32,572 bases of DNA from Clostridia bacterium. Its GTDB lineage: Bacteria > Bacillota > Clostridia > Oscillospirales > CAG-272. Each line of letters starts with the position of its first letter. Position 1 is the stretch's first letter. Shown one piece after another: positions 1 through 24,068 of this stretch. The translations under genes were made by a program, and so were the position numbers. A model generated the notes under the pieces. It saw only the letters and a program-made list of their open reading frames with translations. It did not search any database and had not been told where the DNA came from. The stretch lies in the NCBI GenBank assembly GCA_017621085.1, contig JAGATW010000075.1, forward strand, positions 1 through 32,572, given 5' to 3'.

Positions 1-67
1 AAACAGAAACAGCAAAAACACACGAAATCATAGCAACCATTGCAATAATCAGTAAAATTTTTTTCAT
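1..67 (-). CDS. Secreted protein, N-terminal signal peptide only (cut by window edge)
   Basis: The minus strand starts at an ATG (65-67) preceded by AAAGGAG at good spacing and encodes a Lys-Lys start followed by a long hydrophobic stretch (MKKILLIIAMVAMISCVFAV), then runs off the window. It is a typical Gram-positive signal peptide and closely resembles those of the four BspA-like proteins in this window, including the central Cys. The mature protein is not visible, so it could be another LRR protein or an extracytoplasmic sugar-binding protein. It lies downstream of the MerR-kinase/GH32 pair on the same strand and has its own MerR-type promoter, so it probably belongs to that regulon. Confidence 0.75.
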   Translation of the reverse strand, partial: MKKILLIIAMVAMISCVFAVSV

Positions 68-114: not shown

Positions 115-151
115 ATTATAATTGTAAACTATAACCTTGGGTCAAGGTCAA
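115..151 (-). promoter_or_regulatory. MerR-type promoter/operator (site 1) of the truncated secreted gene
   Basis: On the minus strand a TTGACC (146-151) is followed by a 19-bp spacer and TACAAT (121-126). A second register, TTGACC (140-145)-19-TATAAT (115-120), overlaps it. The spacer holds a perfect inverted repeat ACCTTG-ACC-CAAGGT. A 19-bp spacer with a dyad between -35 and -10 is the hallmark of MerR-family activated promoters. The same layout and core sequence recur twice before the MerR-kinase gene. Confidence 0.75.
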
Positions 152-1382: not shown

Positions 1383-3107
1383 TTAACACTCTCCTATATA
1401 ATTTGAAAATCCCTTATTATACTCAATTTTTTCAGCTACAAAGGCTGAGAAAAGAGCAACACCTGTTGATGATTCCTCGTCAACTCTATTAGTTGAAACA
1501 GTTGCCCCAAAGCACTTGGCTATTATGTCCTTTAAAATTTCTGTTCTTTTAATAGCTCCACCGGATGCAACTATATGAGATTTTTTGCAAGGAACTTTTT
1601 CATAAAGCTCATAAAGCTCATTACACATTCCCTTAAGAACTCCTAAGGCAAGTGCTTGTGGGGTAAAGCTATGTCTATCTATATTTTTAATAGAGCCTCT
1701 TAGGTTAGGGTCGCTACGCTTTCCACAGAAAAAGGCATCAACCAAAAGTCCCTCTTCTCCGTTTTCATAGGCTTGCTTGGCTAACTGATTTATTACGCTA
1801 TATTGAGATTTTTCCTGCGCTCCTGCGCTTACCATATAGCTTCTGAAAAATTCCTCAACCATTGAATAGGCAAAGCCACCACAAAGGGCAGAGCCACAAA
1901 CTAAGTATTTTCCCTCAATAAGCGGTCGTAATTCTAACTCCTTATCTACCTCTTGATATTCATCCGTTGCATAGGAAATTTGGGACCCTGTGCCTATATT
2001 TACAAGCATACTGTCCTCATTTTTACTAACTGAGCCTAAAAAGCTTGCTTGGTTATCTCCTATTGGAATAGCTACCGGTATGCCCTTACAGTTACCTATA
2101 ATCAGGCTTTTATTACTTACCTGTGGTAAAAGCTCCTTATCTATTCCGAGAAGTGATAGCTTATCAAATTTAAAGCTACCGTTTTTAACATCAAGCATTC
2201 CAAGGCTTGCACCAATTGAGGTGTGGGTTATGGGCTTTTTGTTGCCGCATATTTCCATAGCAAACAAATCCATTATTGTACAAATACCACAAGCGCCCCT
2301 TGGCACAAGTCCCTTTAGCATATTGTAATAATGTGTTGCTATACCGTAGCCTGTTGAAATATGCTCCTTTGTTATATCGTAAATTAAATCACAGGTTGTT
2401 TTTTCGTCCCTTATTATTTGGTCTGCTCGCTTGTCCTGCCAATTTATAAGGTTAGATACTGCCTGTCCGTTTTCATCTATATACACAATTCCGTGCATTT
2501 GACCTGTTATGCCAATGCTTACTATATTCTCATAGGTTGAAAGAATATGGTACAAAAGCTTTTTTGCTTTTTCCATAATTATCGACACGTCCTGCTCCGA
2601 AAACACCCCTTTTTGGATGTAGGAGCTATGTGGCAGGGTATATGCTTCTATTTGCTCCTTATTATCAATATCGTACACAAGTGCGCTTATAGTTGTTGTG
2701 CCAAGGTCAATACCTACACAGGGTGTGCCATAACCACCGTTTCTTGCTTTTTCGTTTTCGGTAAAGCTTTCATTATTTTCAAGAGCTTCCAATGAGCTTT
2801 TTGCAGAAATGCTTTCGCAAATGCCATATATTTCAGAATTTTTGCCGCTTTCCTTTAGAATTTCAGCCTTTCTTTTTTCTATTAGCTCCTCTAAGCTAAC
2901 CACCCCAAACAGATACAGCTTAATATCGGATATAGCTATGCCAATTCTTCTAAAAAGCTTTATTTCCTTTAAGGCTTCAACGTCACTCTCACTATAATTG
3001 CGATAGCCGTTTTCCTCTCTTGAAACGTTAATTAGCCCCTTGCTTTCATATAAGCGAATTGCCTTAGCCGTTAAGCCTGTTAATTTTTCCACATCATTTA
3101 TCTTCAT
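1383..3107 (-). CDS. MerR-family regulator fused to FGGY sugar kinase (sedoheptulokinase-like)
   Basis: A 574-residue fusion. The start is the ATG at 3105-3107, with GAGGTG 5 nt upstream. Residues 1-70 are a MerR helix-turn-helix (MKINDVEKLTGLTAKAIRLY, then a winged segment with GYRNY), followed by a helical dimerisation segment (about 70-105). From about 130 a complete FGGY kinase follows: phosphate-1 motif GIDLGTTT, a GQMHG/WQDKRAD sugar-site region like sedoheptulokinase or xylulokinase, IGTGSQ, and a C-terminal SGGAIKR. Family knowledge: FGGY kinases phosphorylate ketoses and polyols using ATP. Inference: the kinase domain is both enzyme and effector-sensing module for the DNA-binding head. 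Two tandem 19-bp-spacer MerR promoters lie just upstream (autoregulation) and a third precedes the downstream secreted gene. The sugar is unknown. Confidence 0.88.
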   Translation of the reverse strand: MKINDVEKLTGLTAKAIRLYESKGLINVSREENGYRNYSESDVEALKEIKLFRRIGIAISDIKLYLFGVVSLEELIEKRKAEILKESGKNSEIYGICESISAKSSLEALENNESFTENEKARNGGYGTPCVGIDLGTTTISALVYDIDNKEQIEAYTLPHSSYIQKGVFSEQDVSIIMEKAKKLLYHILSTYENIVSIGITGQMHGIVYIDENGQAVSNLINWQDKRADQIIRDEKTTCDLIYDITKEHISTGYGIATHYYNMLKGLVPRGACGICTIMDLFAMEICGNKKPITHTSIGASLGMLDVKNGSFKFDKLSLLGIDKELLPQVSNKSLIIGNCKGIPVAIPIGDNQASFLGSVSKNEDSMLVNIGTGSQISYATDEYQEVDKELELRPLIEGKYLVCGSALCGGFAYSMVEEFFRSYMVSAGAQEKSQYSVINQLAKQAYENGEEGLLVDAFFCGKRSDPNLRGSIKNIDRHSFTPQALALGVLKGMCNELYELYEKVPCKKSHIVASGGAIKRTEILKDIIAKCFGATVSTNRVDEESSTGVALFSAFVAEKIEYNKGFSNYIGEC

Positions 3108-3128: not shown

Positions 3129-3159
3129 ATCTTAAGCTATAACCTTGGGTTAATGTCAA
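3129..3159 (-). promoter_or_regulatory. MerR-type promoter/operator (site 2) of the MerR-kinase gene
   Basis: TTGACA (3154-3159), 19-bp spacer, TAAGAT (3129-3134) on the minus strand. It carries the shared core ACCCAAGGTTATAG, which is identical in site 1. The predicted start lies about 15 nt before the ATG, just ahead of the ribosome binding site. Confidence 0.72.
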
Positions 3160-3181: not shown

Positions 3182-3212
3182 ATCATACACTATGCCCTTA
3201 GGTCAATGTCAA
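3182..3212 (-). promoter_or_regulatory. MerR-type promoter/operator (site 3), upstream tandem copy
   Basis: TTGACA (3207-3212), 19-bp spacer, TATGAT (3182-3187). The spacer core ACCTAAGGGCATAG matches sites 1 and 2 with few changes. It is 53 bp upstream of site 2 and also close to the divergent transporter promoter, so binding here could affect both directions. Confidence 0.68.
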
Positions 3213-4738: not shown

Positions 4739-7129
4739 TTATGCCACAGGATTTATAATGCCATTGTATGTAACAAATGAGTATTTGTTATCTTCTTTCG
4801 GGTCATCCGCCTGCATATATGAATATACAGTATTTTCACCGTCATTAACAATTACATACGCGCCAAGAGCAAGGAAAGCATCCTTTTGTGCATCTGTTTC
4901 AAAGCCTATTATCTTTATATCAAAGCCTGCAAAATCTGTTCTTGCAATATTGAAGCTAATAACACCATCTGCTACGCTTCCGTCATTGCCAAAGATGTCA
5001 CCATCCTTAAGCTTATCCTGTGATACAGCAAACACACCATACTTTATTGTGTTGCCTGTAACCTCTATGTAATTATCAATAGCTACGCTATTTGTCTTAA
5101 AGCCAAGGGAAATTCCATTGCCTGTTTTTGATGCTGAGTAGCCTTGACAAGTAAATAGTGCTGATTCTTTTTGCTCACTGTTTACATCGTCACATCTTGC
5201 ACATTGATACTCGTAATTGCCTTCCTTTAAGAAGCTTTCATATACCAAGCCGATAAATATTGTATGGTCGTGACCAAGTGCTGTGTTTTCCTCTTCTACT
5301 GTGCCAATCTTTTCACCACAGAAGCAATAGGTTGTAACAACCTTGTTTTCTGTACAGGTAGCATCTGTTTCTTCTGTTTCTTTTGGATTTGCAACATGCC
5401 AATATTGGTTTTCTTCCTTAGTTGCTGCTATATCATCTACACTTGCCTTAGCCATTGTGTATTTATAGCCTGTTGAGCAGAAATAGAAGTAGCAATTTTC
5501 ATTATTTCTGTTATAGAAGGCTGTAAATGTAAGTGTGCTCAAATCAGTATTGCCTTTGTTAGCAAATACAAAGTCAATATACTTGTTCATTTCAGACCAA
5601 GCATAATTTGTAATTTTACCAAGATATACAACTGTTTTACGTTGAGACTGACTTGCAGTGCCACGGAACATTTGTACAACTGTTGAGTCGGTAAATGCCT
5701 CAGGCATTACTATAACATTGTTTAAGCTTGCACAATCACGGAACAATGTTCCTGAGCTTACATTACCATCTGATCTTGCAAAATTTTCAGGCATATAGTA
5801 AAGCTCGGGCTTTTGGGGCATTTTAAATTTATCGCCAAAGAAATAACCGTTTGCGTCACGAACCTCGAATGCTTTTTGTACAAAATACATTTTGCCATTA
5901 AAGCAGAATGGACCCTGACCGTTACCGTTTGTGTTCATTTGCTCAAGGTTTGCAGGTAGATAAACTGCTTGAAGGTTAGCACAGTTATTAACAAATCTAT
6001 TGCATAAAGTCTTAAGATTGTTAGGTAAGGAAAGTGCCTTTAAGCTTGGACAGTTATTAAAGTGACCCCAGTTATCAAGATTTATATCGTTAGGGTTATC
6101 ATTAAAGTCAACAAATTCAAGCGCTGCGCTATCACGACAAATTGATGGACCGAGCTTTGTTATTGTTGATGGAAGTGATAGATACTTAATGCTATCACAG
6201 TTATAAAACGCCTCTTGGTCAATGAGTGTAACACCCTCAGGAATTATTACTGCGCCATCTTGGTCAACACCTGAGCTTATAATTTTACTTAATGAGGTAC
6301 AGCCGGAAAATGCATATTTACCTATACTAACCATATTGGTTACACCGGACAAATCAACAATTGTAAGTGCTGTGCAACCGGAAAATACGCTTTCCCTTAT
6401 TTCGGTAACTGTTGAAGGGAGCTTAATACTTGCAAGAGCTGTACATCCACTAAATGTGCCTTTACCTATATAGGTCACGTTGCCAAGCACAACGCTTTCA
6501 AGTGCTGTACACTGGAAAAATGCATAGGCATTACCGGCAAATTCGGTAGGTCCTTCAAACTTAACGCTTTTCAAGCTTTCGTTTTTTGCAAAGGTCCTAC
6601 TGTAAAGGTGTGTTATGGTTGATGGAATAACAAGCTCTTCAAAGCCACAGCCCTCAAAGGAATTGTCACCAAGCTTCTTAAGGTTTCCAAAATCAAAGGA
6701 CTTTAAGCTACTCCAGCCATTAAACAATGAGCTTGGAGTTACATAGTCCATTGCACCCTCCTGTGTAAACCACTTAACCTCTGTACAATTTACATAAGGT
6801 GCTTTTGGCTTAACCATTCTGGTAGGTGCTTTGCCCTGTACTCCGCTTGCATAAGTTTTGCTAACAGAAAAGTCGATACCTGTAACGGTTGACATATCAA
6901 CCTCTTGGGTAAAATCAACATCAGAATAAAACTTGCAGTTAGCAAAATCAATTCTTGGGTTGCTTGTATCTTCAGCATTTTGAGTATAGACGGTTATGTA
7001 CTCGTCACTACCCGGGAACCTTGCGCCAAATTCAATATAATTACTTGGCGTTTCAGCGCTTATGCCTATTACCATTAGGCAAGAAAGCAAAGCCACCATT
7101 AATGAAATAAAGATAATTTTCTTTTTCAT
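4739..7129 (-). CDS. BspA-like secreted leucine-rich-repeat protein (copy 1)
   Basis: A 796-residue protein beginning with a signal peptide (MKKKIIF..., likely cleaved after ISA) and preceded by AAAGGAGAAACACA. Residues about 140-520 carry BspA/LRR_5-type repeats with the recurring FxGCTxLxxI-LPxTxTxI pattern. A Cys-rich stretch follows (about 590-630, with YCFCG) and a CARC pair, then a C-terminal domain of about 140 residues opening with LFTCQGYSASKTGNGISLGF that is shared with the other LRR proteins here. No LPXTG motif or late membrane helix is present, so attachment to the cell is unexplained. Family knowledge: BspA-type LRR proteins of gut and oral bacteria are surface or secreted binding proteins. 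Binding partner unknown. Confidence 0.85.
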   Translation of the reverse strand: MKKKIIFISLMVALLSCLMVIGISAETPSNYIEFGARFPGSDEYITVYTQNAEDTSNPRIDFANCKFYSDVDFTQEVDMSTVTGIDFSVSKTYASGVQGKAPTRMVKPKAPYVNCTEVKWFTQEGAMDYVTPSSLFNGWSSLKSFDFGNLKKLGDNSFEGCGFEELVIPSTITHLYSRTFAKNESLKSVKFEGPTEFAGNAYAFFQCTALESVVLGNVTYIGKGTFSGCTALASIKLPSTVTEIRESVFSGCTALTIVDLSGVTNMVSIGKYAFSGCTSLSKIISSGVDQDGAVIIPEGVTLIDQEAFYNCDSIKYLSLPSTITKLGPSICRDSAALEFVDFNDNPNDINLDNWGHFNNCPSLKALSLPNNLKTLCNRFVNNCANLQAVYLPANLEQMNTNGNGQGPFCFNGKMYFVQKAFEVRDANGYFFGDKFKMPQKPELYYMPENFARSDGNVSSGTLFRDCASLNNVIVMPEAFTDSTVVQMFRGTASQSQRKTVVYLGKITNYAWSEMNKYIDFVFANKGNTDLSTLTFTAFYNRNNENCYFYFCSTGYKYTMAKASVDDIAATKEENQYWHVANPKETEETDATCTENKVVTTYCFCGEKIGTVEEENTALGHDHTIFIGLVYESFLKEGNYEYQCARCDDVNSEQKESALFTCQGYSASKTGNGISLGFKTNSVAIDNYIEVTGNTIKYGVFAVSQDKLKDGDIFGNDGSVADGVISFNIARTDFAGFDIKIIGFETDAQKDAFLALGAYVIVNDGENTVYSYMQADDPKEDNKYSFVTYNGIINPVA

Positions 7130-7164
7130 TGTGTTTCTCCTTTAATATATATTTATCCAAATTA

Positions 7165-7193
7165 ATTTTAACATTAAATCTTTCATATGTCAA
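7165..7193 (-). promoter_or_regulatory. Promoter of LRR copy 1
   Basis: TTGACA (7188-7193), 17-bp spacer, TAAAAT (7165-7170) on the minus strand. Sequence from -35 through -10 and the last 19 nt before the ATG closely matches the promoter of copy 2, indicating duplication of gene plus control region. Confidence 0.85.
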
Positions 7194-7225
7194 GAAAAAT
7201 TTAGCAAGGTCTGTTTATTGGCAAA

Positions 7226-7250
7226 AAAGCAAGGGAAAGTCCCTTGCTTT
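7226..7250 (-). terminator. Terminator after LRR copy 2
   Basis: An 11-bp stem (7226-7236 with 7240-7250) around GCAAGGGA/TCCCTTGC with a 3-nt loop, followed by a T-run in the minus-strand transcript. It lies just beyond the stop at 7260. Confidence 0.85.
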
Positions 7251-7259
7251 TGCGTCAAT

Positions 7260-9055
7260 TTATAAGCTTGCTGTTTCGTTATTAAAGGTTGTAAAGGAAT
7301 ATTTTTCGCCCTCTAACGGAGTGCCTGCTTGAATGTACGAATATGTTGTTTCCTCACCGTCAGTTACTTCTACATATGCGCCCATTGCAAATAGGCTGTT
7401 TTTATTACCGTTTTCACCATCTGTAAAGCCTACCACCTTAATGTCAAAGCCTGCAAAGTCTGTCCTTGCAATTTCAGTTTTGATAACCTTATTGCTCAAG
7501 CCTTCGTCAAAAAGATCTGTTGTGCCAAGGAATGCTTGTGAGCCTGCAAATACGCCATATTTTATTGTTTTGCCTGTTACCTTAGTATAATCGGCAATTG
7601 CTGTATTGTTCACATCAAAGCCAAGGGAAATTCCATTTCCTGTATTAGAGGCTGAAAAGCCCTTGCAAACAAAGAGTGATAATGCTTTCTCTGTACATTA
7701 TGACCACAGCCTGCGTTTGTACAAAGGGTAACCTTAATTCCCTCATTAGCATAACCCTTTTCATACTTGATAGTTGTATTTAAGCTATGCTCAGGGTTTT
7801 CCTTCTTTGTTGCTAACTCGCACTCAATACATATCTCAACACAAGGATTTGTATTATTTTTGTGCTTACCTGTTATTGCAAGAGCTGAGCAGTAGTTTTC
7901 TATAATTGTGTGGCTTGTTATTGCGCCACCCGGCACGTATGTCCAAGGACTTGCAGGGTCCTTATAATCAACTACGGTTGCACCTGTAATAGCAGGGTAT
8001 GTATTTGCTTGAATAAAGCTTTCCTTTGTAACATTATCGCCTATTAAAACAAATTCAATTTTTGCCCCTGAATCACGGAAGGGATAATACTTTGTTCCAA
8101 ACTGAACATTACTTTGAACATATACTGTAAATGTATTTATTGTTTGATTTCTTCTTGCTGAATGGAATGCCTCATCTGCTATTGTTTCCATAGTTGCAGG
8201 AAGAACAATTGATTGTAGCTTATAGCAATGAGCAAGTGCCTTGCCTTCCATGGTTTTTAGGTTTGGCGGTAAAATTACATTAACCAAATTATCGCAACCT
8301 GAAGCAAAGTTGCCCTTTAAATATGTTAAGTTAACACAGCCACTTAGGTCAAGGGTTGTAATATTATCATTGTCGGTAAACGGTCCACCGTAGCCACCAC
8401 CTGCCACAGTTAAATTTGCACACCTGCTTAAATCAAAGCCCTCAAAGCCTGTGTTTTGGAAGGAATACTCTTGTATTTTTTCAAGTGTAGATGGGAATAC
8501 AACTGTGCCTCTTAGCGATTTACAGCCATTGAATGCGTGACCACCAATTTCAGTCATACCCTCAGCAAGCACAAGCTCATTAGTAGCTACCATGTTGGAG
8601 CATGCTTGAAATGCACTTCCCGCTAACTTTTTGAATTTTGGAAATGTAATCTCTGTAAGACTTGTACAGCTTGAGAAATTACCCTTTCTTATTTCCACAA
8701 CGCAGTTAGGGTTAAAGGTGATTTTCTTAACTGAACATCCTGAAAATATACCATCTCCACTGATAAAAAATGTATCTGTTGCCTCAAAGGTAAGAGAGTT
8801 AAGCTTAGAAGCCTTGTTAAACAGTACATTTGCCTCTATGCCTTCAATTTCGTCAGGGAAAATAACGTCTGTTACACTGTCCTTTGTATAACCGTCATTA
8901 AAGCCTGTTATTTGGTTGTTTTTTACTTTAAAAACAGTTGTCAAGTCAGCCTTTTCTCCACTCACTAAGGTAACCTCATTTGAAGCACTAATTGTAAGTG
9001 AAAAAAGACAAGCTATGATAACTACAAATAAAGCAACTAAAAATTTCTTTTTCAT
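7260..9055 (-). pseudogene. BspA-like LRR protein (copy 2), broken by a frameshift
   Basis: The N-terminal frame (7610-9055, 481 codons) has a signal peptide (MKKKFLVALFV..., cleavage near ISA), LRR_5-type repeats (about 60-320) and a CTNAGCGHN Cys segment, then goes out of frame and stops at 7610. The shared C-terminal domain resumes in another frame (about 7260-7690) with LSLFVCKGFSASNTGNGISL, 65-70% like copies 1 and 3 by eye. The frames meet around 7689-7699; adding one base there would give a continuous protein of about 597 residues. Either a real single-base deletion, a phase-variable state or a sequencing/assembly error. Promoter, ribosome binding site and terminator look intact, so loss would be recent. 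Confidence 0.85.
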
Positions 9056-9089
9056 TGTGTTTCTCCTTTAAGTATAATTATACATATTT

Positions 9090-9118
9090 AGTTTAACATT
9101 AAATGCTCCACATGTCAA
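9090..9118 (-). promoter_or_regulatory. Promoter of LRR copy 2
   Basis: TTGACA (9113-9118), 17-bp spacer, TAAACT (9090-9095), followed by AAAGGAGAAACACA before the ATG. The leader is identical to that of copy 1 in the last 19 nt. Confidence 0.82.
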
Positions 9119-9148
9119 GGATTTTTTCCGCGTATAAAGATAAGCTAA

Positions 9149-9340
9149 CCCTTTAAAATTTCTAAAAATGCTTGTAGCGATACGATTATAGACGCCTTTC
9201 GCTACTCGTCCTTTAAAAAGTACAAGTACAAGAAAAAAATTCTCGGAAAAGATATTTACTTTTGGCGTATATTTAACTTGGCAGCTTATACTTTCTTAGC
9301 ACTATTAACCGTTCTTGTGCTTTTTTTAATTTTCCACTAA
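9149..9340 (+). pseudogene. Remnant of a membrane protein C-terminus, no start codon
   Basis: In the 332-nt gap between the LRR gene and the next gene, the plus strand has a stop-bounded 63-codon frame without any ATG, GTG or TTG start near its beginning. It reads as plausible protein: a mixed segment (DTIIDAFRYSS), a Lys/Tyr-rich basic stretch (KKYKYKKK) and one C-terminal hydrophobic helix (FLALLTVLVLFLIF). It is followed 13 nt later by a terminator hairpin. The basic stretch before a final helix looks like the tail of a lost gene, not chance. I cannot assign a family. Nothing else is seen in this gap apart from the promoter of LRR copy 2. Confidence 0.45.
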
Positions 9341-9353
9341 AGGCTATAAAATA

Positions 9354-9382
9354 CCCCCGATGAGATAAGCACTCATCGGGGG
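9354..9382. terminator. Intrinsic terminator, possibly bidirectional
   Basis: An 11-bp GC-rich stem CCCCCGATGAG/CTCATCGGGGG (9354-9364 with 9372-9382) with T-rich tracts on both sides. It sits just after the stop of the zinc-ribbon gene (minus) and the membrane-protein remnant (plus). Confidence 0.85.
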
Positions 9383-9387
9383 TTGTT

Positions 9388-9630
9388 TTAGCTTTTTCTT
9401 GCGTTTTTGTTTTGCTTTTCTTGTGGCTGAAGGTCTTTTACCTTCCACATTTTCATTCTTGAGAAAAATCTTATTCCTACAACAATGTTTTTAACCTCGC
9501 CACATTTAACGCAGGTTTCAGGAAATTCCCAATACTCGCAATCCTTGTGTACATAATGTATTCCAAGTCTTTCATTAATACATCTTCTGCAATATCCGTG
9601 AAATTCCTTTTTAAAATCCTTATATTTCAT
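9388..9630 (-). CDS. Small zinc-ribbon-like protein
   Basis: An 80-residue basic protein with two Cys pairs, CRRC (about 14-17) and CVKC (about 40-43), spaced as in a treble-clef or zinc-ribbon fold; the ends are Lys/Arg-rich. The start ATG (9628-9630) has only a poorly spaced GAGGAG 17 nt upstream. A candidate promoter is CTGAAC-17-TATAAT at 9665-9693. It lies between two LRR genes but has its own terminator, so it is probably a separate unit. No enzymatic motif is visible; nucleic-acid binding or metal binding is the likeliest role. I do not recognise the family by name. Confidence 0.6.
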   Translation of the reverse strand: MKYKDFKKEFHGYCRRCINERLGIHYVHKDCEYWEFPETCVKCGEVKNIVVGIRFFSRMKMWKVKDLQPQEKQNKNARKS

Positions 9631-9664
9631 AATTTAGCTGAAGCTTACTCCTCTCTTGTATGGA

Positions 9665-9693
9665 ATTATAAGTCAAGTACCGAAGCAGTTCAG
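9665..9693 (-). promoter_or_regulatory. Possible promoter of the zinc-ribbon gene
   Basis: A perfect TATAAT (9665-9670) with a weak -35, CTGAAC (9688-9693), 17 bp away on the minus strand. Confidence 0.4.
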
Positions 9694-9708
9694 TTTATGT
9701 CATAAAGC

Positions 9709-11445
9709 TTAATTGGCAACTGCCTCATTGTAGGTAACAAATGAGTACTTTTCACCCTCAAGTGGGTTTTCTGATTGCATATATGAATACTCAACACCCT
9801 CGCCATTTGATACCATAGCATATGCGCCAAGAGCAAGCTTTGTAGCCTTTTGCGCATCTGTTTCAAAGCCCATAACCTTAATGTCAAAGCCTGCAAAATC
9901 CATTCTCTTGATTTCTACAGTAACAGCACCGTCAAATGCATTGCCCTGCTCATCAAATATATCATTGTCCTTAAGCTTTTCCTGTGCTACTGCAAATACA
10001 CCGTACTTTACAGTATTACCTGTTACCTTAGTGTAGTTTTCAATAGCTGCGCTATCTACCTTAAAGCCAACGGAAATACCGTTACCAACCTTAGATGCAG
10101 AAATACCCTGGCAGCTGAATAATGGTAATGCGCTTGGTGTTGCCTCAGCATAACCGTCACAGGTTGGACAGGAGTAGTAGTATGTACCGTTTGTTAAGAA
10201 GCTTGTATATACTAAATCTGCTACTGTATTAATATCGTATGTATGGTTACCAAAGAATACTACACATTTTGTTTCAATAGGTGTGTTATATTTAATTCTT
10301 TCATCATTTTCTGCATTAATCGCGGTGATAAATGGGTCTTTGTTGTTCTCCGAATTGTTAATAGTAATGTTGTTTGTTGCAGTGGTGAAATAGAATGTAA
10401 CTTTTAAACCTGCACCGCACTGACCAAATATCTGCTTATCAAATGTAGAAGGTTGAGATGGCATCCAAACAGCCTCTAAAGCTGTACATTTTTCAAAGCA
10501 ATAAGCTCCAAGGGAAACAGGGCCATTTGGAAGAATAACCTTTTTAAGGGATGTGCAGGATTCAAAAACGGTTTCAGTTGTGCCGATTTCGGTTACTGTA
10601 TCCGGAATTACAATGCTTGTAATTGCTTTACAATTGCCAATAGCTCTGCCCTCTATTTTCTCAAGTCCCTGTGGAAGAACGATTTTTTCAAGCACATAGC
10701 AATCGGAGAAGGTTCTGTAATTGAGAGTTTTATCGCCCTTAAAGAAGCCTTCCATGTTATCAATTGTCTTAAGCTTTTTGCAGCCATGGAACATATAGTT
10801 TGTAGCATAATCCATATACGTACCGTCAGCCTGTAGGTAAGCATTTGGAAGCTTAACATATTCAAGTTCATCGCAATATTCAAGCAATGAATATGTGCCT
10901 TGAGACTGGTCGATTATCATTCCGGAGAGGTCAATTGACTTTAACTTTTTACAGTTTGTAAACGCCTTTCTCTGACCGTTGTCCCAGAAATAAACGCCGT
11001 CGTTCATTATGCACTCTACCATGTTTGCACAACCGCTTAGGTTTTCGTTATTACTGCAAATAAATTTAATGTCAGATGGAAACTCAATTCTTATAATGCT
11101 GTTCTTTGAAACGCTAAAGCCAAGCTTTGCGCTAATTTCACCAAAGCTAAGGTTGAACATTTCGCCCTCTACGCCATTACCACGGTTTTTGTGATGCTCT
11201 GTAAGAACATAAACCGTTGGAACGGTGTAGTAGTTGCCGTTACCATCAGTTAATACTGTACGTGCAACTGTTCCGTCGTCCTTTTTGTCGCTGATTTGAG
11301 TGTTACCAATTGCTTCATCAAATTGGCAAAGTGTGCCATAAGCATCGCTTGTTGAAGAAACAACGGTATCAGCACTTACGCTAATAGCAAATAAGCATAC
11401 AAGCATTGCTACAATTGCAAGTGTTAAAAGAATTTTCTTTTTCAT
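9709..11445 (-). CDS. BspA-like secreted leucine-rich-repeat protein (copy 3)
   Basis: 578 residues from the ATG at 11443-11445, with AAAGGA upstream. A longer frame to 11562 runs through the promoter and is not used. The signal peptide (MKKKILLTLAIVAMLVCLFA, cleavage near VSA) is followed by a region of about 90 residues and LRR_5-type repeats (about 140-370, with FxxCKxLxSI and FESCTSLKKVILP). A CPTC pair (about 420) and the shared C-terminal domain (LFSCQGISASKVGNGISVGF to the end) follow. This domain is closer to that of copy 1 than the repeats are, suggesting selection on the tail or recombination. No sortase motif is present. Probably a surface adhesin or binding protein; ligand unknown. 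Confidence 0.83.
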   Translation of the reverse strand: MKKKILLTLAIVAMLVCLFAISVSADTVVSSTSDAYGTLCQFDEAIGNTQISDKKDDGTVARTVLTDGNGNYYTVPTVYVLTEHHKNRGNGVEGEMFNLSFGEISAKLGFSVSKNSIIRIEFPSDIKFICSNNENLSGCANMVECIMNDGVYFWDNGQRKAFTNCKKLKSIDLSGMIIDQSQGTYSLLEYCDELEYVKLPNAYLQADGTYMDYATNYMFHGCKKLKTIDNMEGFFKGDKTLNYRTFSDCYVLEKIVLPQGLEKIEGRAIGNCKAITSIVIPDTVTEIGTTETVFESCTSLKKVILPNGPVSLGAYCFEKCTALEAVWMPSQPSTFDKQIFGQCGAGLKVTFYFTTATNNITINNSENNKDPFITAINAENDERIKYNTPIETKCVVFFGNHTYDINTVADLVYTSFLTNGTYYYSCPTCDGYAEATPSALPLFSCQGISASKVGNGISVGFKVDSAAIENYTKVTGNTVKYGVFAVAQEKLKDNDIFDEQGNAFDGAVTVEIKRMDFAGFDIKVMGFETDAQKATKLALGAYAMVSNGEGVEYSYMQSENPLEGEKYSFVTYNEAVAN

Positions 11446-11479
11446 AGTTTTTCCTTTCAAAAATAAAAATTCGCAATTA

Positions 11480-11508
11480 ATTATAACACAATAGTTCAAT
11501 GATTTCAA
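11480..11508 (-). promoter_or_regulatory. Promoter of LRR copy 3
   Basis: TTGAAA (11503-11508), 17-bp spacer, TATAAT (11480-11485) on the minus strand. It lies inside the upstream extension of the reading frame, supporting the start at 11445. It differs from the copy 1/copy 2 promoters. Confidence 0.85.
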
Positions 11509-11578
11509 GTGTAAATTGTTAATGTTCAACAGAAAGATTAATTTATTTAGAAAGCAAGGCAATCTTACATCAATGATA

Positions 11579-11639: not shown

Positions 11640-14039
11640 ATGGTAATTAACAGCTGGAAAATGGATTTTGATAAATACAAGGGACTTAATTGCACTCCCC
11701 CATGTGACATGTATAGTATTTTATACGACTATGGCTACATAGACGACCCTTACTATGGAGCAAATGAGGAAGGCTTAACCTCTCTTTCAAGACAGGACGC
11801 TATTTTTTACAGCGAATTTTCTTTAAGCCAAGAAGAACTGAAATGCGAAAAAATCGACCTTACCTTTTTTGGCGTTGATACCATATGTGAAGTATATTTT
11901 AACGACACTCCCTTGGGCAAAATACAAAATATGCATCGTATGTATGAGTATGATGTTAAGGCTTTGGCTAAAGAAAAAAATGTAATTAAGCTACACATAA
12001 AAGCCCCTATTCCTTATTTTGAAAAAATGGAGGCAAGCCACCATTTATACACAAATGGTGATACCATACCCGGTGCTGCTCACTTAAGAAAGGCACTTTA
12101 TATGTCAGGGTGGGACTGGGCGCCAAAGCTACCTAATATGGGCATTTTCCGACCCGTTGCAGTTCGTTGCTATAATACGGATAAGCTGGGGGACGTGTCT
12201 ATAATTCAGCATCATAAGGGCGATTTTGTAAGGCTTGACGTTTCCTGTACAACTAAGCATAATTCAAGCAAGGTTACCATTGATTGCATAGTTGACGGTC
12301 AAAAAATTACACTTGAAAACGGCAAGGGCGAAATAGTAATTAAAAATCCTCGCCTATGGTGGCCAAACGGATATGGCAAGCAGGAATTATACCATATTGA
12401 ATTTTTAATGTACGAAAATGATACATTAATTGATAAGGTGGAAAAGGACATCGGCTTACGCACCTTGACCTTAAGTCAAGAAAAGGATGAATACGGACAA
12501 GAGTTTTGCTTTAAGGTAAACGGAGTTAAAATTTTTGCAATGGGCGCAAACTATGTGCCAATTGATATTCTCTTATCACGCATTACTAAGGACCGTGTTG
12601 AAAATCTTATAAAGGATTGCATTTTTGCTAACTTTAACTGTATAAGAGTTTGGGGTGGCGCATTTTACCCTGAGGACTACTTTTACGACCTTTGCGACAA
12701 ATACGGTCTTATTGTTTGGCAGGACTTTATGGTTGCTTGTGCTAACGTATGGTTAACTGATGAAATGGAAAAGGAATTCATAGAGGAGGCTACCTATAAC
12801 GTAAAAAGAATTAGGCACCATGCCTGTCTTGGCTTGCTTTGTGGCAACAACGAAATGGAGGAGGCTGTTTGCTACTGGGAAGACGCGGATGGCAATGACC
12901 CACTTGTACGCAAGGACTATTTAAGGCTTTATGAGGAGATTTTACCCTCGATTTGCAAGGAGCATGCGCCTTACATTTCCTACACTCCATCCAGCCCTAC
13001 ATCCGGAGGTGGCTTTGATGACCCTAAGGACTACACAAGGGGAGATGTGCATTTTTGGAATGTTTGGAACGGAGATTGTGAGTTTGACGAATACAGACGC
13101 CATAAATTCCGTTTTTGCTCCGAATATGGCTTCGAAAGCTTGCCGTCTATGAAAACTATTAAAGAATTTTGCCCTTTGGATGAAATGAATTTGCTTTCAT
13201 ACACCATGGAAAGCCATCAAAAGCATTGGCACGGCAATGTAAAGCTAATACGCTATTTGGCAGAAAGATATTTGATGCCAAAGGATTTAGAGACAACCGT
13301 ATATGCAACCCAGCTTAATCAAGCTACTGCTATACAGTACGGAGTTGAGCATTTCAGAAGATGTCGTGGCTATACTATGGGCTCAATCTATTGGCAGCTA
13401 AACGACACATGGCCCGTTGCTTCCTGGTCAAGCCTTGATTATTTTGGAAGATACAAGGCGCTTCACTACTTTGCAAAAAGGTTTTATCAGGGTATTGCCC
13501 TTGGCTTGTTTAATGAAAGCGATAAAATTACAATTAATGTTTCTAACGAAACAATGTGCAATTTTTCCGGCTACATAAAATATGGTGTTATGAAAAATGA
13601 TTTTTCCTCTGTTTCCTTCTCGGTAAAACAGGTAAGCGTTGACGCTCTTTCCTCTAAGGATACAGTAAGTGTTACCAATGAGGAGTTTAATGGCTCCTTT
13701 GATAAATACTTTTTTGCAGAGCTATATGATAACGACAATAATTTAATTGCAAGAAGCACAGAGCTTGGCACAAAGCCAAAGTACTTTAAATTTCTAAAGC
13801 CGGATATTAAAATTGAAGCAAGAAACGGAGATAATGGTGTTTATTTAACATTTAAATCAAGCGTGCTTGCGAAAAATGTATTTGTTAGCTTTGATGGACT
13901 TGATGTCTACTTAAGTGATAACTTCTTCGATTTATCAAGCAAGGAGCCATTTACAATTTTTGTAAAGACTGACTTAAGTACAACTGAGCTTATGAGCAAA
14001 ATTTCTTTAATGTCGGTTTACGATATTCCACCAAGATAA
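11640..14039 (+). CDS. Beta-mannosidase, glycoside hydrolase family 2
   Basis: A 799-residue cytoplasmic enzyme without signal peptide. The N-terminal half holds the GH2 sugar-binding jelly roll and immunoglobulin-like domain (about 1-275; MSGWDWAPKLPNMGIFRPV is typical of beta-mannosidases). A TIM barrel follows from about 285 with NFNCIRVWGG, the acid/base Glu in CGNNE (residue 405) and the nucleophile Glu in CSEYGF (residue 495), then C-terminal beta domains. Known reaction: removal of terminal beta-1,4-mannose from mannooligosaccharides or glycan cores. Length is normal for the family. It has its own promoter and is followed by a weak stem-loop before a hydrolase of the EEP fold. Role: use of host or plant mannans/N-glycan fragments, by inference. 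Confidence 0.9.
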   Translation: MVINSWKMDFDKYKGLNCTPPCDMYSILYDYGYIDDPYYGANEEGLTSLSRQDAIFYSEFSLSQEELKCEKIDLTFFGVDTICEVYFNDTPLGKIQNMHRMYEYDVKALAKEKNVIKLHIKAPIPYFEKMEASHHLYTNGDTIPGAAHLRKALYMSGWDWAPKLPNMGIFRPVAVRCYNTDKLGDVSIIQHHKGDFVRLDVSCTTKHNSSKVTIDCIVDGQKITLENGKGEIVIKNPRLWWPNGYGKQELYHIEFLMYENDTLIDKVEKDIGLRTLTLSQEKDEYGQEFCFKVNGVKIFAMGANYVPIDILLSRITKDRVENLIKDCIFANFNCIRVWGGAFYPEDYFYDLCDKYGLIVWQDFMVACANVWLTDEMEKEFIEEATYNVKRIRHHACLGLLCGNNEMEEAVCYWEDADGNDPLVRKDYLRLYEEILPSICKEHAPYISYTPSSPTSGGGFDDPKDYTRGDVHFWNVWNGDCEFDEYRRHKFRFCSEYGFESLPSMKTIKEFCPLDEMNLLSYTMESHQKHWHGNVKLIRYLAERYLMPKDLETTVYATQLNQATAIQYGVEHFRRCRGYTMGSIYWQLNDTWPVASWSSLDYFGRYKALHYFAKRFYQGIALGLFNESDKITINVSNETMCNFSGYIKYGVMKNDFSSVSFSVKQVSVDALSSKDTVSVTNEEFNGSFDKYFFAELYDNDNNLIARSTELGTKPKYFKFLKPDIKIEARNGDNGVYLTFKSSVLAKNVFVSFDGLDVYLSDNFFDLSSKEPFTIFVKTDLSTTELMSKISLMSVYDIPPR

Positions 14040-22327: not shown

Positions 22328-24004
22328 TTATTTTGCTAAATTGTAGGTAGTCGAGGTTGCTGTAGTGCCTGTTATTCCATTGTTGATGTAATAGCATTCA
22401 CCACCAAGCTTTACATATGCACAGAAGAACAAGTATGCATCAAGCTTTGTATCGTCAAGACCTGCAATCTTTATTTCAAAGAAATCAAATTTTGCATTTG
22501 AAAGGTTGCAAGAAATGTTGTTTTCAACAGCAAATACATCTACACCCTCGTCCTTATTTTCTCTTAAGTCTGCTGCTGCAATTACGCCAAATTCAAGCTT
22601 GCCAAGAACCTTTTCATACTCTGCTCTTGCATTTGCGTCTATTGAGAAGCCCTGAACTATTGAGCCCTGATTATTTGATGAATAGCCAAGGCAAGTAAAT
22701 AAAGGAGCAAGCTCACTCTTATCAACTGCAAATGTACAGTTAGCGCAGGATTTTGATTTTGTAGCCTTGCTTAAGAATTTTTCGCCCTCGTATGTAATTG
22801 TGTAGCTGTCTGATACTGCGTGAACTCCGTTATTGAAAGCCTCACAAGCACTGTAATTATATACAATTATGCTATAACCAAGTGTGTCCGCATAGGTTGT
22901 GTAGTCAACGTCGGGTGAAAATTCAACAATTTCTGCATTTCCGATTGCCTTGTTTGCATTTGTTGCCTTGAATTTATCTCTTGCTTCAAGGGCATTATCA
23001 TAGCTACCAACCAAGAAGAATGTTGCCTTTTGGCTGTTATTGAAAATGTTCTTAAACTGGTTATTTGTTGCAGTTACATTATCTGCAAAGGATGCAGGCA
23101 AATAAACGTACTTTAATTTGTTGGAGTTTAAAAATGTTTCATAGTCATTATTTGGGCTTGAAAATTTGTTAAAGCCTGAGCCAAATTTGAAGGTAACAAG
23201 GCTTGTGCAGTTTGCAAAAGCCATTTTATTAAGAGTTGTCACGCTGTTTGGCAATGAAACCTCTGTAAGGGATGAGCATTCATTAAAGCATCTTAGACCA
23301 ATAGAGGTAGCCGTTTGTGGGATTTTAATTTCCTTTAATTCCTTGCAGCCTGCAAATCCGTCTTGATTTCCTTCAACAAGTGCCGCAGGAAGAAATTCGG
23401 AATTATGAACATACTCAAGGCTTGAGCAGATTGAGAAAAGATTTTGTCCTGCAATTGAGGTTACGTAAGCTACCTCCTTTTCCAAGCCTGTTTCCTCGTC
23501 AACAACTATGTGAGTTGGGAAATACACCTCTTTAAGATTAGTGTCACCCTCAAACTTTGATGTTCCTGAAAAGGATGTAACATATGTTGGCACCTCATAT
23601 CTTATAAGGTACTTGCAGCCACCACCTGACCATCCACCACCAATTCCAGCATAGCCTGCAAATGCGCTTGGGTCTGCTGCTGCAATGGCATCGTTCAATT
23701 TGGTAAGATATCCCCAAACGGTATTATTTGTTGTTCTCATATAATAATATGATGGGAACACGTAATAGGTTGGTGTTTCTGCAAGGTCACTTAAGACAAC
23801 CACTGATGTAGAATCTATCTCTCCCAATGAATCTCCATCAAATGCGTCCAAATGGGACACATACGCATCTCTGTTTGCGTGAATTTCCTCTAAGGTTGGC
23901 AAGGTAGTATGCTTTATAATTTTATCCTCTGCAAAAACAGAAAAGGCAAAAAGGCAAGCAAGCACTAATGCCATTAAGGAAACTAATAATAATTTCTTTT
24001 TCAT
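22328..24004 (-). CDS. BspA-like secreted leucine-rich-repeat protein (copy 4, divergent)
   Basis: 558 residues from the ATG 24002-24004 (GAAGGAG upstream); the longer frame to 24064 is upstream sequence. A signal peptide (MKKKLLLVSLMALVLACLFA, cleavage near VFA) precedes a region of about 160 residues without clear repeats and LRR_5-type repeats at about 190-310 (FAGCKELKEIKIP, FNECSSLTEVSLP). A CANC pair then opens a divergent version of the shared C-terminal domain (LFTCLGYSSNNQG). This domain keeps its LFxCxGxS start and the alternating aromatic pattern but has lost much of the sequence identity of copies 1-3. No sortase signal. It has its own promoter. Confidence 0.8.
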   Translation of the reverse strand: MKKKLLLVSLMALVLACLFAFSVFAEDKIIKHTTLPTLEEIHANRDAYVSHLDAFDGDSLGEIDSTSVVVLSDLAETPTYYVFPSYYYMRTTNNTVWGYLTKLNDAIAAADPSAFAGYAGIGGGWSGGGCKYLIRYEVPTYVTSFSGTSKFEGDTNLKEVYFPTHIVVDEETGLEKEVAYVTSIAGQNLFSICSSLEYVHNSEFLPAALVEGNQDGFAGCKELKEIKIPQTATSIGLRCFNECSSLTEVSLPNSVTTLNKMAFANCTSLVTFKFGSGFNKFSSPNNDYETFLNSNKLKYVYLPASFADNVTATNNQFKNIFNNSQKATFFLVGSYDNALEARDKFKATNANKAIGNAEIVEFSPDVDYTTYADTLGYSIIVYNYSACEAFNNGVHAVSDSYTITYEGEKFLSKATKSKSCANCTFAVDKSELAPLFTCLGYSSNNQGSIVQGFSIDANARAEYEKVLGKLEFGVIAAADLRENKDEGVDVFAVENNISCNLSNAKFDFFEIKIAGLDDTKLDAYLFFCAYVKLGGECYYINNGITGTTATSTTYNLAK

Positions 24005-24068
24005 AATATTCTCCTTCATAATTGTGTAAATTGCACAAATAATATTCAATAAACACTTGTACATTGTA

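Follow-up and report, generated by a model that had tools for sequence, protein, structure and literature searches.

A MerR DNA-binding head joined to an FGGY sugar kinase in Clostridia: a candidate trigger enzyme for glycan use

The window, by which we mean the whole 32,572-nucleotide stretch of Clostridia bacterium DNA that was analyzed, carries a minus-strand gene (3107 to 1383) for a 574 aa protein in which a MerR-type head and an FGGY sugar kinase are joined in a single open frame (window ORF and Pfam). The gene is inherited: most copies belong to a single clostridial family, with scattered cases in others. Judging from its sequence, we propose a bifunctional "trigger enzyme," in which an FGGY ketose kinase still able to catalyze would, through its substrate state, gate a MerR activator controlling a regulon for glycan use, and we give this reading a probability of about 0.6. 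We also lean, if not strongly, toward a more general statement: that these proteins form a conserved MerR class with a working sugar kinase as effector, in which the same active site would both phosphorylate a ketose and switch a regulon of hydrolases and surface or secreted proteins.

The fusion gene and its relatives

An earlier note on this DNA had described one protein with both domains intact in one unbroken frame. The open frame and the Pfam domains confirm this; the architecture given at 1383..3107 was right, and the strand, which had been left out, is minus (Table 1). The N-terminal helix-turn-helix scores above the Pfam cut-offs for MerR_1 (57.8 bits, cut-off 21.6) and MerR (38.9, cut-off 28.2), and the kinase part, which spans residues 131-555, does so for FGGY_N (85.6, cut-off 28.8) and FGGY_C (33.8, cut-off 27). 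Between the two lies a region that, going by MerR structures, we take to be the place of the dimerization helix in MerR proteins, and the structure model predicts helices 72-86 and 92-101 at the position expected for it. The fold-match list (VIA-align) of the fusion model was occupied by the kinase domain and was silent on the head, and PADLOC matched only the head.

Table 1. Positions of the fusion gene, its domains, its neighbors and the predicted promoters in the window
Feature	Position	Strand	Basis and remarks
MerR-FGGY fusion gene	1383..3107	-	Start ATG 3107, alternative GTG 3122; open frame; 31 distinct intact relatives including the window's
MerR helix-turn-helix and wing, residues 1-66	2910..3107	-	Pfam MerR_1 1.2e-15, MerR 7.4e-10; phmmer match to CueR structures
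Residues 67-128: predicted helices 72-86 and 92-101, then linker 101-128	2724..2909	-	Structure model and domain statistics
FGGY_N, residues 131-356; GIDLGTT, GQMHG, presumed catalytic Asp351 (codon 2055-2057)	2040..2717	-	Pfam; residue counts in 31 fused proteins
FGGY_C, residues 369-555	1443..2003	-	Pfam; fold match
GH32-like glycoside hydrolase, 399 aa	181..1380	-	2 bases downstream of fusion; Pfam GH32N 3.5e-22
Start of next gene, signal-peptide-like MKKILLIIAMVAMISCVFAVSV	1..67	-	Sequence; cut by contig end
Operator/promoter 1 of fusion gene, TTGACA-N19-TAAGAT	3129..3159	-	Predicted
Operator/promoter 2 of fusion gene, TTGACA-N19-TATGAT	3182..3212	-	Predicted
Operator/promoter before next gene, TTGACC-N19-TACAAT	121..151	-	Predicted

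A search for the two-domain architecture, as the earlier note had suggested, gathered 31 distinct intact fusions from related Clostridia, the window's own included, after duplicates across collections (L193, L194, L195, L095, and L199) had been taken out by hand. Identity to the window's fusion was 55-93% in one set of 16 and 38-39% in two diverged ones. The genomes were examined in samples that overlap, all but the genus sample being drawn from larger groups. Among the 30 genomes of the genus, 11 contained an uninterrupted full-length fusion, one (G012) contained a fusion with a broken frame in the linker, and two (G020 and G022) contained the kinase only. In the family sample (395 genomes), where "uninterrupted" denotes a match from position 3 or earlier to position 556 or later, there were 31 uninterrupted fusions, one with a single stop (G920), and broken copies in G012, G943, and G120. 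The order sample (394 genomes) gave the broken copy in G120 and eight uninterrupted fusions, of which those of G115 and G182 belong to other families. No uninterrupted fusion was found in the class sample (391 genomes) outside the window's own genome; G714 had a fusion with one stop that ended at a contig end, and G761 had a remnant of the head. In the phylum sample (398 genomes), the fusion was found in the window's own genome only. The copy in G714 (L174, G714:C86), which comes from another family of the class and is interrupted by an in-frame TAG, lies behind an operator with the dyad TTCACCTAAGGTGAA. The named collection comprised 22 loci; the titles of 16 place them in gut assemblies of sheep, roe deer, water deer, or goat. 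L052 and L053, also among the 22, resemble the fusion in the MerR part alone and have tails that look like membrane proteins. In the plasmid collection, 303 records matched, none over 80% of the query, and the eight matches listed covered the kinase part only.

Could a misassembly or a frame error have joined two genes? The window's genome is a draft of 128 contigs, the named relatives are metagenome assemblies, and in one relative (L049/G012) the frame is broken by a single base within the linker. The fusion is, however, uninterrupted at 31 distinct loci in several genera and at least three families, from independent assemblies, which already refutes an artifact and leaves it practically no chance. 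The earlier note had named as contrary evidence related strains in which the two domains are separate proteins; none was encountered, the head being fused, missing, or reduced to a remnant. G012/L049 is not a clean two-gene split, as it reads as a one-base frame break in an A-run of the linker, and G943 is not a split gene, as its frame break lies within the kinase and leaves two overlapping pieces. G020 and G022, which contain a headless kinase and are 61% and 69% complete, had no stand-alone head match at E 0.001. L054 (G000:C94) was rejected as a headless paralog because its head is cut off by the contig end; it represents a second such locus in that genome (71% identity), complete with a GH32-like gene and an operator, the latter in front of a 469-aa protein.

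The wider kinase tree (midpoint root) requires seven changes in the state of the head, at least six of them on well-supported branches. A tree with more distant kinases requires six changes, one of them caused by L054, which was wrongly labeled unfused there and which we excluded from the wider tree and from the residue counts. There, the fused proteins group with four true headless kinases (L045, L048, L050, and L101; support 93/88), next to unfused kinases, which points to one early fusion followed by several losses of the head; by the midpoint-rooted wider tree, whose root is uncertain, more than one gain of the head is possible. In other families, kinases that are more distantly related and have no head (L105, L106, L108, L109, L111, and L112) lie beside a conserved gene of ~780 aa, and five of these six loci also have a gene of ~235-290 aa. 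By their appearance the two genes could encode a glycyl radical enzyme with its activase, and these kinases possibly belong to another kinase pathway.

Promoters, operators and the predicted regulon

The predicted promoters of the fusion bear the hallmark of MerR-activated promoters, namely 19-bp spacing with a dyad in the spacer. We scanned 160 bases upstream of each gene, demanding TTGAC or a near-perfect pair of boxes and treating fused and control genes identically. The best promoter upstream of the fusion had TTGAC, and -35 and -10 boxes exactly 19 bp apart, at 31/31 distinct loci (36/36 rows when duplicates are counted). Of 274 other genes in these loci, 87 had a promoter by the same scan; the boxes were most often 17 bp apart (46 genes), and in six they were 19 bp apart. 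Four of these six belong to operator-bearing genes downstream of GH32; the fifth is a short frame inside the broken L100 fusion, with its site 74 bases before the fusion start; and the sixth looks like background. Published accounts describe the 19-bp spacer as typical of MerR-type promoters (PMC11049809) and place a palindrome inside a 19-20 bp promoter spacer (PMC1526738). The window has three candidate sites, two before the fusion gene and one before the next gene, each of the MerR-type 19-bp form.

The commonest bases of the dyad-containing spacer are roughly TTGACATTGACCTTGGGTTATGGTTTATAAT, with near ties at columns 10, 15, 18, and 22. Pairing was best when centered at positions 13.5-14 of the 31-mer, with z values of 7.4 and 9.6 against shuffled spacers, which are not probabilities, since the sequences are related; lesser peaks (z 3.4-4.0) were centered at 11, 14.5, and 17. 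The exact CC-N3-GG core is missing in 8/31 fused promoters. The broken fusion L100 (G120:C3) has a promoter, TTGACC-N19-TATAAT, with a different dyad, ACCTTC...GAAGGT, as if the specificity of its head had shifted.

The operator and the head occur together. A 27-base operator pattern (up to three mismatches) was found at 27 sites in 12 of the 30 genus genomes, and these are exactly the 12 that contain the MerR head; in one of the 12, the frame is broken after the head. The pattern was absent from the 18 headless genomes, two of which have the kinase alone; several of the 18 are incomplete, so that absence is weaker evidence than presence. The reversed pattern, used as a control, was found in 0/30 genus genomes. 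With a looser 31-base pattern, 15 of 20 chosen genomes had hits, all of them head-bearing, the five chosen headless genomes had none, and there was one control hit overall; sites with three mismatches in head-bearing genomes (G016:C13, G003:C75, and G009:C33) were set aside as chance by their appearance. The headless kinases L045, L050, L101, L202, and L205 have no 19-bp operator promoter in the region scanned, and L048 has a 19-bp promoter that lacks the dyad. In a test of independent pairs on the tree, 4.4 of 6 pairs agreed on average and none was opposite (median p 0.125), a result that favors an association between the head and the 19-bp promoter, in the right direction and short of significance. 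At L178 (G761:C91, reverse strand, ~1.36-2.85 kb of the reversed locus), an operator-like promoter, TTGACC-N19-TATAAT, is kept before a head that has been cut to 21 residues, MRIKDVEAITGLSMKSIRLYE, and runs straight into the kinase; this is most simply a relic of a natural in-frame deletion.

The gene directly after the fusion scores 79.8 bits for GH32N in Pfam (cut-off 22.1). The best PDB match of its model (pLDDT 89) is the endo-levanase BT1760 (TM 0.61, 21% identity), followed by invertases, with GH43 enzymes further down the list. A GH32-like gene directly follows the fusion at 26 of the 31 distinct loci and was not found after it in L097, L206, L208, L209, or L204 (for L204, 868 bases downstream only).

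Of the 27 genus sites, 13 lie before the fusion, seven lie between the GH32-like gene and a further gene downstream of it, six precede glycoside hydrolases, and one (G003:C4) has no explanation. The hydrolase targets are a GH29 fucosidase (G000:C59), a GH36 melibiase (G000:C120), a GH4 enzyme (G016:C7; G003:C39 and G014:C94, each running off its contig, have the start of the same protein), and a GH38 enzyme (G040:C56), identified by Pfam through the same gene in L034. The site without an explanation, G003:C4:24621, has no convincing target, only a short frame that by eye resembles the tail of an LRR-type protein. As at 121..151 in the window, the operator in L032, L033, L035, L049, and L054 stands before proteins that by eye bear signal peptides. 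Those that follow GH32 in L032, L033, L035, and L049 are BspA-type LRR_5 proteins; that of L054, the end of which is cut, had no Pfam match, and those of L034 and the window are truncated by contig ends. The gene at 1..67 in the window is a probable member of the regulon.

Elsewhere in the window, two stretches on the minus strand (4739-11562 and 22328-24064) encode several large proteins with signal-like N termini and a C-terminal domain that by eye seems to be shared with the LRR_5 targets; no operator pattern was found before them. A GH2 β-mannosidase-like enzyme (Pfam) is encoded at 11640-14039 (+), and in L040 and L051 relatives of this enzyme come directly after the GH32-like gene.

The GH32 partner and the GH36 and GH4 targets suggest that the substrate may be a ketose from fructosides or raffinose-type sugars. 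The combination of an α-galactosidase with GH32 fits raffinose-type sugars or fructans, which would not explain the fucosidase and the mannosidase. We infer that the kinase acts on a ketose freed by the GH32 enzyme, such as fructose. Nothing points to sedoheptulose or xylulose, which the earlier note had listed among the sugars to try: the NCBIfam model of the xylulokinase XylB (TIGR01312) gave 118.9 bits, short of its cut-off of 380.25.

The kinase domain and how it may act on the head

Mean pairwise identity among the 31 distinct fusions was 61% for the helix-turn-helix (residues 1-70), 53% for the kinase, 45% for region 71-100, and 23% for linker 101-128, which changes fast and is 23-45 residues long. 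In five species pairs, pN/pS was 0.05-0.20 for the helix-turn-helix and 0.11-0.19 for the kinase. All 31 proteins keep Arg18, Tyr20, Glu21, Arg30, Tyr35, Arg36, and Arg53 of the MerR head, and all keep Asp134, Gly136, Thr137, Thr138, Gln203, Met204, His205, Gly206, Trp223, Asp351, Gln353, Gly372, Thr373, and Gly516 of the kinase. Asp351 aligns with an Asp of the FGGY kinase 3gbt, and from this and FGGY chemistry we presume it to be the catalytic base. The loss of catalytic residues that would have counted against the earlier note was thus not seen, with Asp134, GQMHG, and Asp351 present in every fusion. The fusion matched 24 NCBIfam and 4 Pfam models (E up to 0.01), none of them a ROK model, and its score reached the cut-off of none of the NCBIfam models.

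These residues bear on the possibility that the kinase domain senses but does not catalyze, like ROK repressors or BzdR. Regulators that combine a helix-turn-helix with a kinase fold are known (BzdR, PMC3602430; ROK, PMC4856308), and Asp225 and Arg227, present in 27/31 fusions, are changed to Asn and Phe in four, L098, L099, L203, and L204, which are among the most diverged; because of these replacements, substrate or activity may differ in the four. The invariant residues and the low pN/pS of the kinase nevertheless argue against a sensor that has given up catalysis, as does the retention of Asp134, His205, and Asp351 in 11/11 headless kinases, and we regard such a sensor as quite unlikely. 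Because headless kinases within the fused group keep the same residues, the kinase seems worth keeping as an enzyme in its own right.

For the trigger enzyme, we envisage the following mechanism. The FGGY kinase sits where MerR proteins carry a small-molecule-binding domain, and its cleft would be the effector pocket. The MerR head, as a dimer, would occupy the overlong promoters with 19-bp spacers. Binding of the ketose (with or without ATP/ADP), or the catalytic cycle, would alter the dimer, and the altered dimer would realign the -35 and -10 boxes, turning on its own operon (the fusion and the GH32-like hydrolase) together with other glycan-use genes. The earlier note had likewise proposed that DNA activation is set by occupancy of the kinase domain with sugar or ATP. 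We infer each of the elements on which this scheme depends: binding of the head at the sites, activation, kinase activity, and the substrate as signal.

A simpler arrangement is that the head activates its promoters ungated by the kinase, the fusion serving to fix the ratio of enzyme to regulator, with constitutive or concentration-dependent autoregulation. The predicted autoregulatory site at every fusion would suit such an arrangement, and so would the linker, whose variable sequence and length do not point to a rigid allosteric connection. MerR proteins as a class, however, switch through a C-terminal ligand domain, and a sugar signal is suggested because operators also precede other glycosidases. 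We consider an ungated head somewhat unlikely and continue to prefer a kinase whose substrate state gates the head.

Relation to known systems

The earlier note knew of no characterized example, and in the literature searched (titles and abstract starts, subscription papers lying mostly outside it) we found no description of a MerR-FGGY fusion. If the proposal is true, substrate availability and enzyme occupancy would be read directly at the promoter. The predicted regulon would be a first map of glycan use for these uncultured bacteria, and the fusion would offer, from gut Clostridia, a compact candidate for a switch that responds to sugar.

Trigger enzymes with a DNA-binding domain, such as BirA, PutA, and NadR, combine an enzyme and a transcription factor in one chain. 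The fusion resembles them in this respect, by sequence only; they use DNA-binding folds and enzymes other than MerR and FGGY. With members of the MerR family (CueR, BmrR, MerR, and CarH), it shares an N-terminal MerR helix-turn-helix and a dyad operator in a 19-bp spacer, but its effector is a complete FGGY kinase of ~445 residues and its predicted targets are glycan-use genes. Unlike FGGY kinases such as xylulokinase and glycerol kinase, it carries a DNA-binding head, and it is ~19% identical to the Lactobacillus acidophilus FGGY kinase (3gbt/3ll3) in a structural alignment.

ROK proteins (repressor, ORF, kinase) and BzdR are standard examples of enzymes that became regulators. The ROK family also joins a helix-turn-helix to a sugar-kinase fold and controls sugar genes; ROK proteins are described as either kinases or regulators (PMC4856308), whereas the fusion chain is apparently both. 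BzdR likewise has a DNA-binding head on a small-molecule kinase domain, a helix-turn-helix with a shikimate-kinase-like domain, but has lost catalysis, and the loss of shikimate kinase activity is reported as essential (PMC3602430); the fusion, in contrast, keeps the key kinase residues. The fusion family looks like a stage at which the two functions coexist, and its natural variants with heads on, heads off, and heads half deleted, together with a readable operator, would allow direct tests of how an enzyme turns into a transcription factor. MerR regulators, FGGY kinases, regulators that join a helix-turn-helix to a kinase fold, and trigger enzymes are all known; what looks new is a MerR protein with an apparently intact FGGY kinase as its effector.
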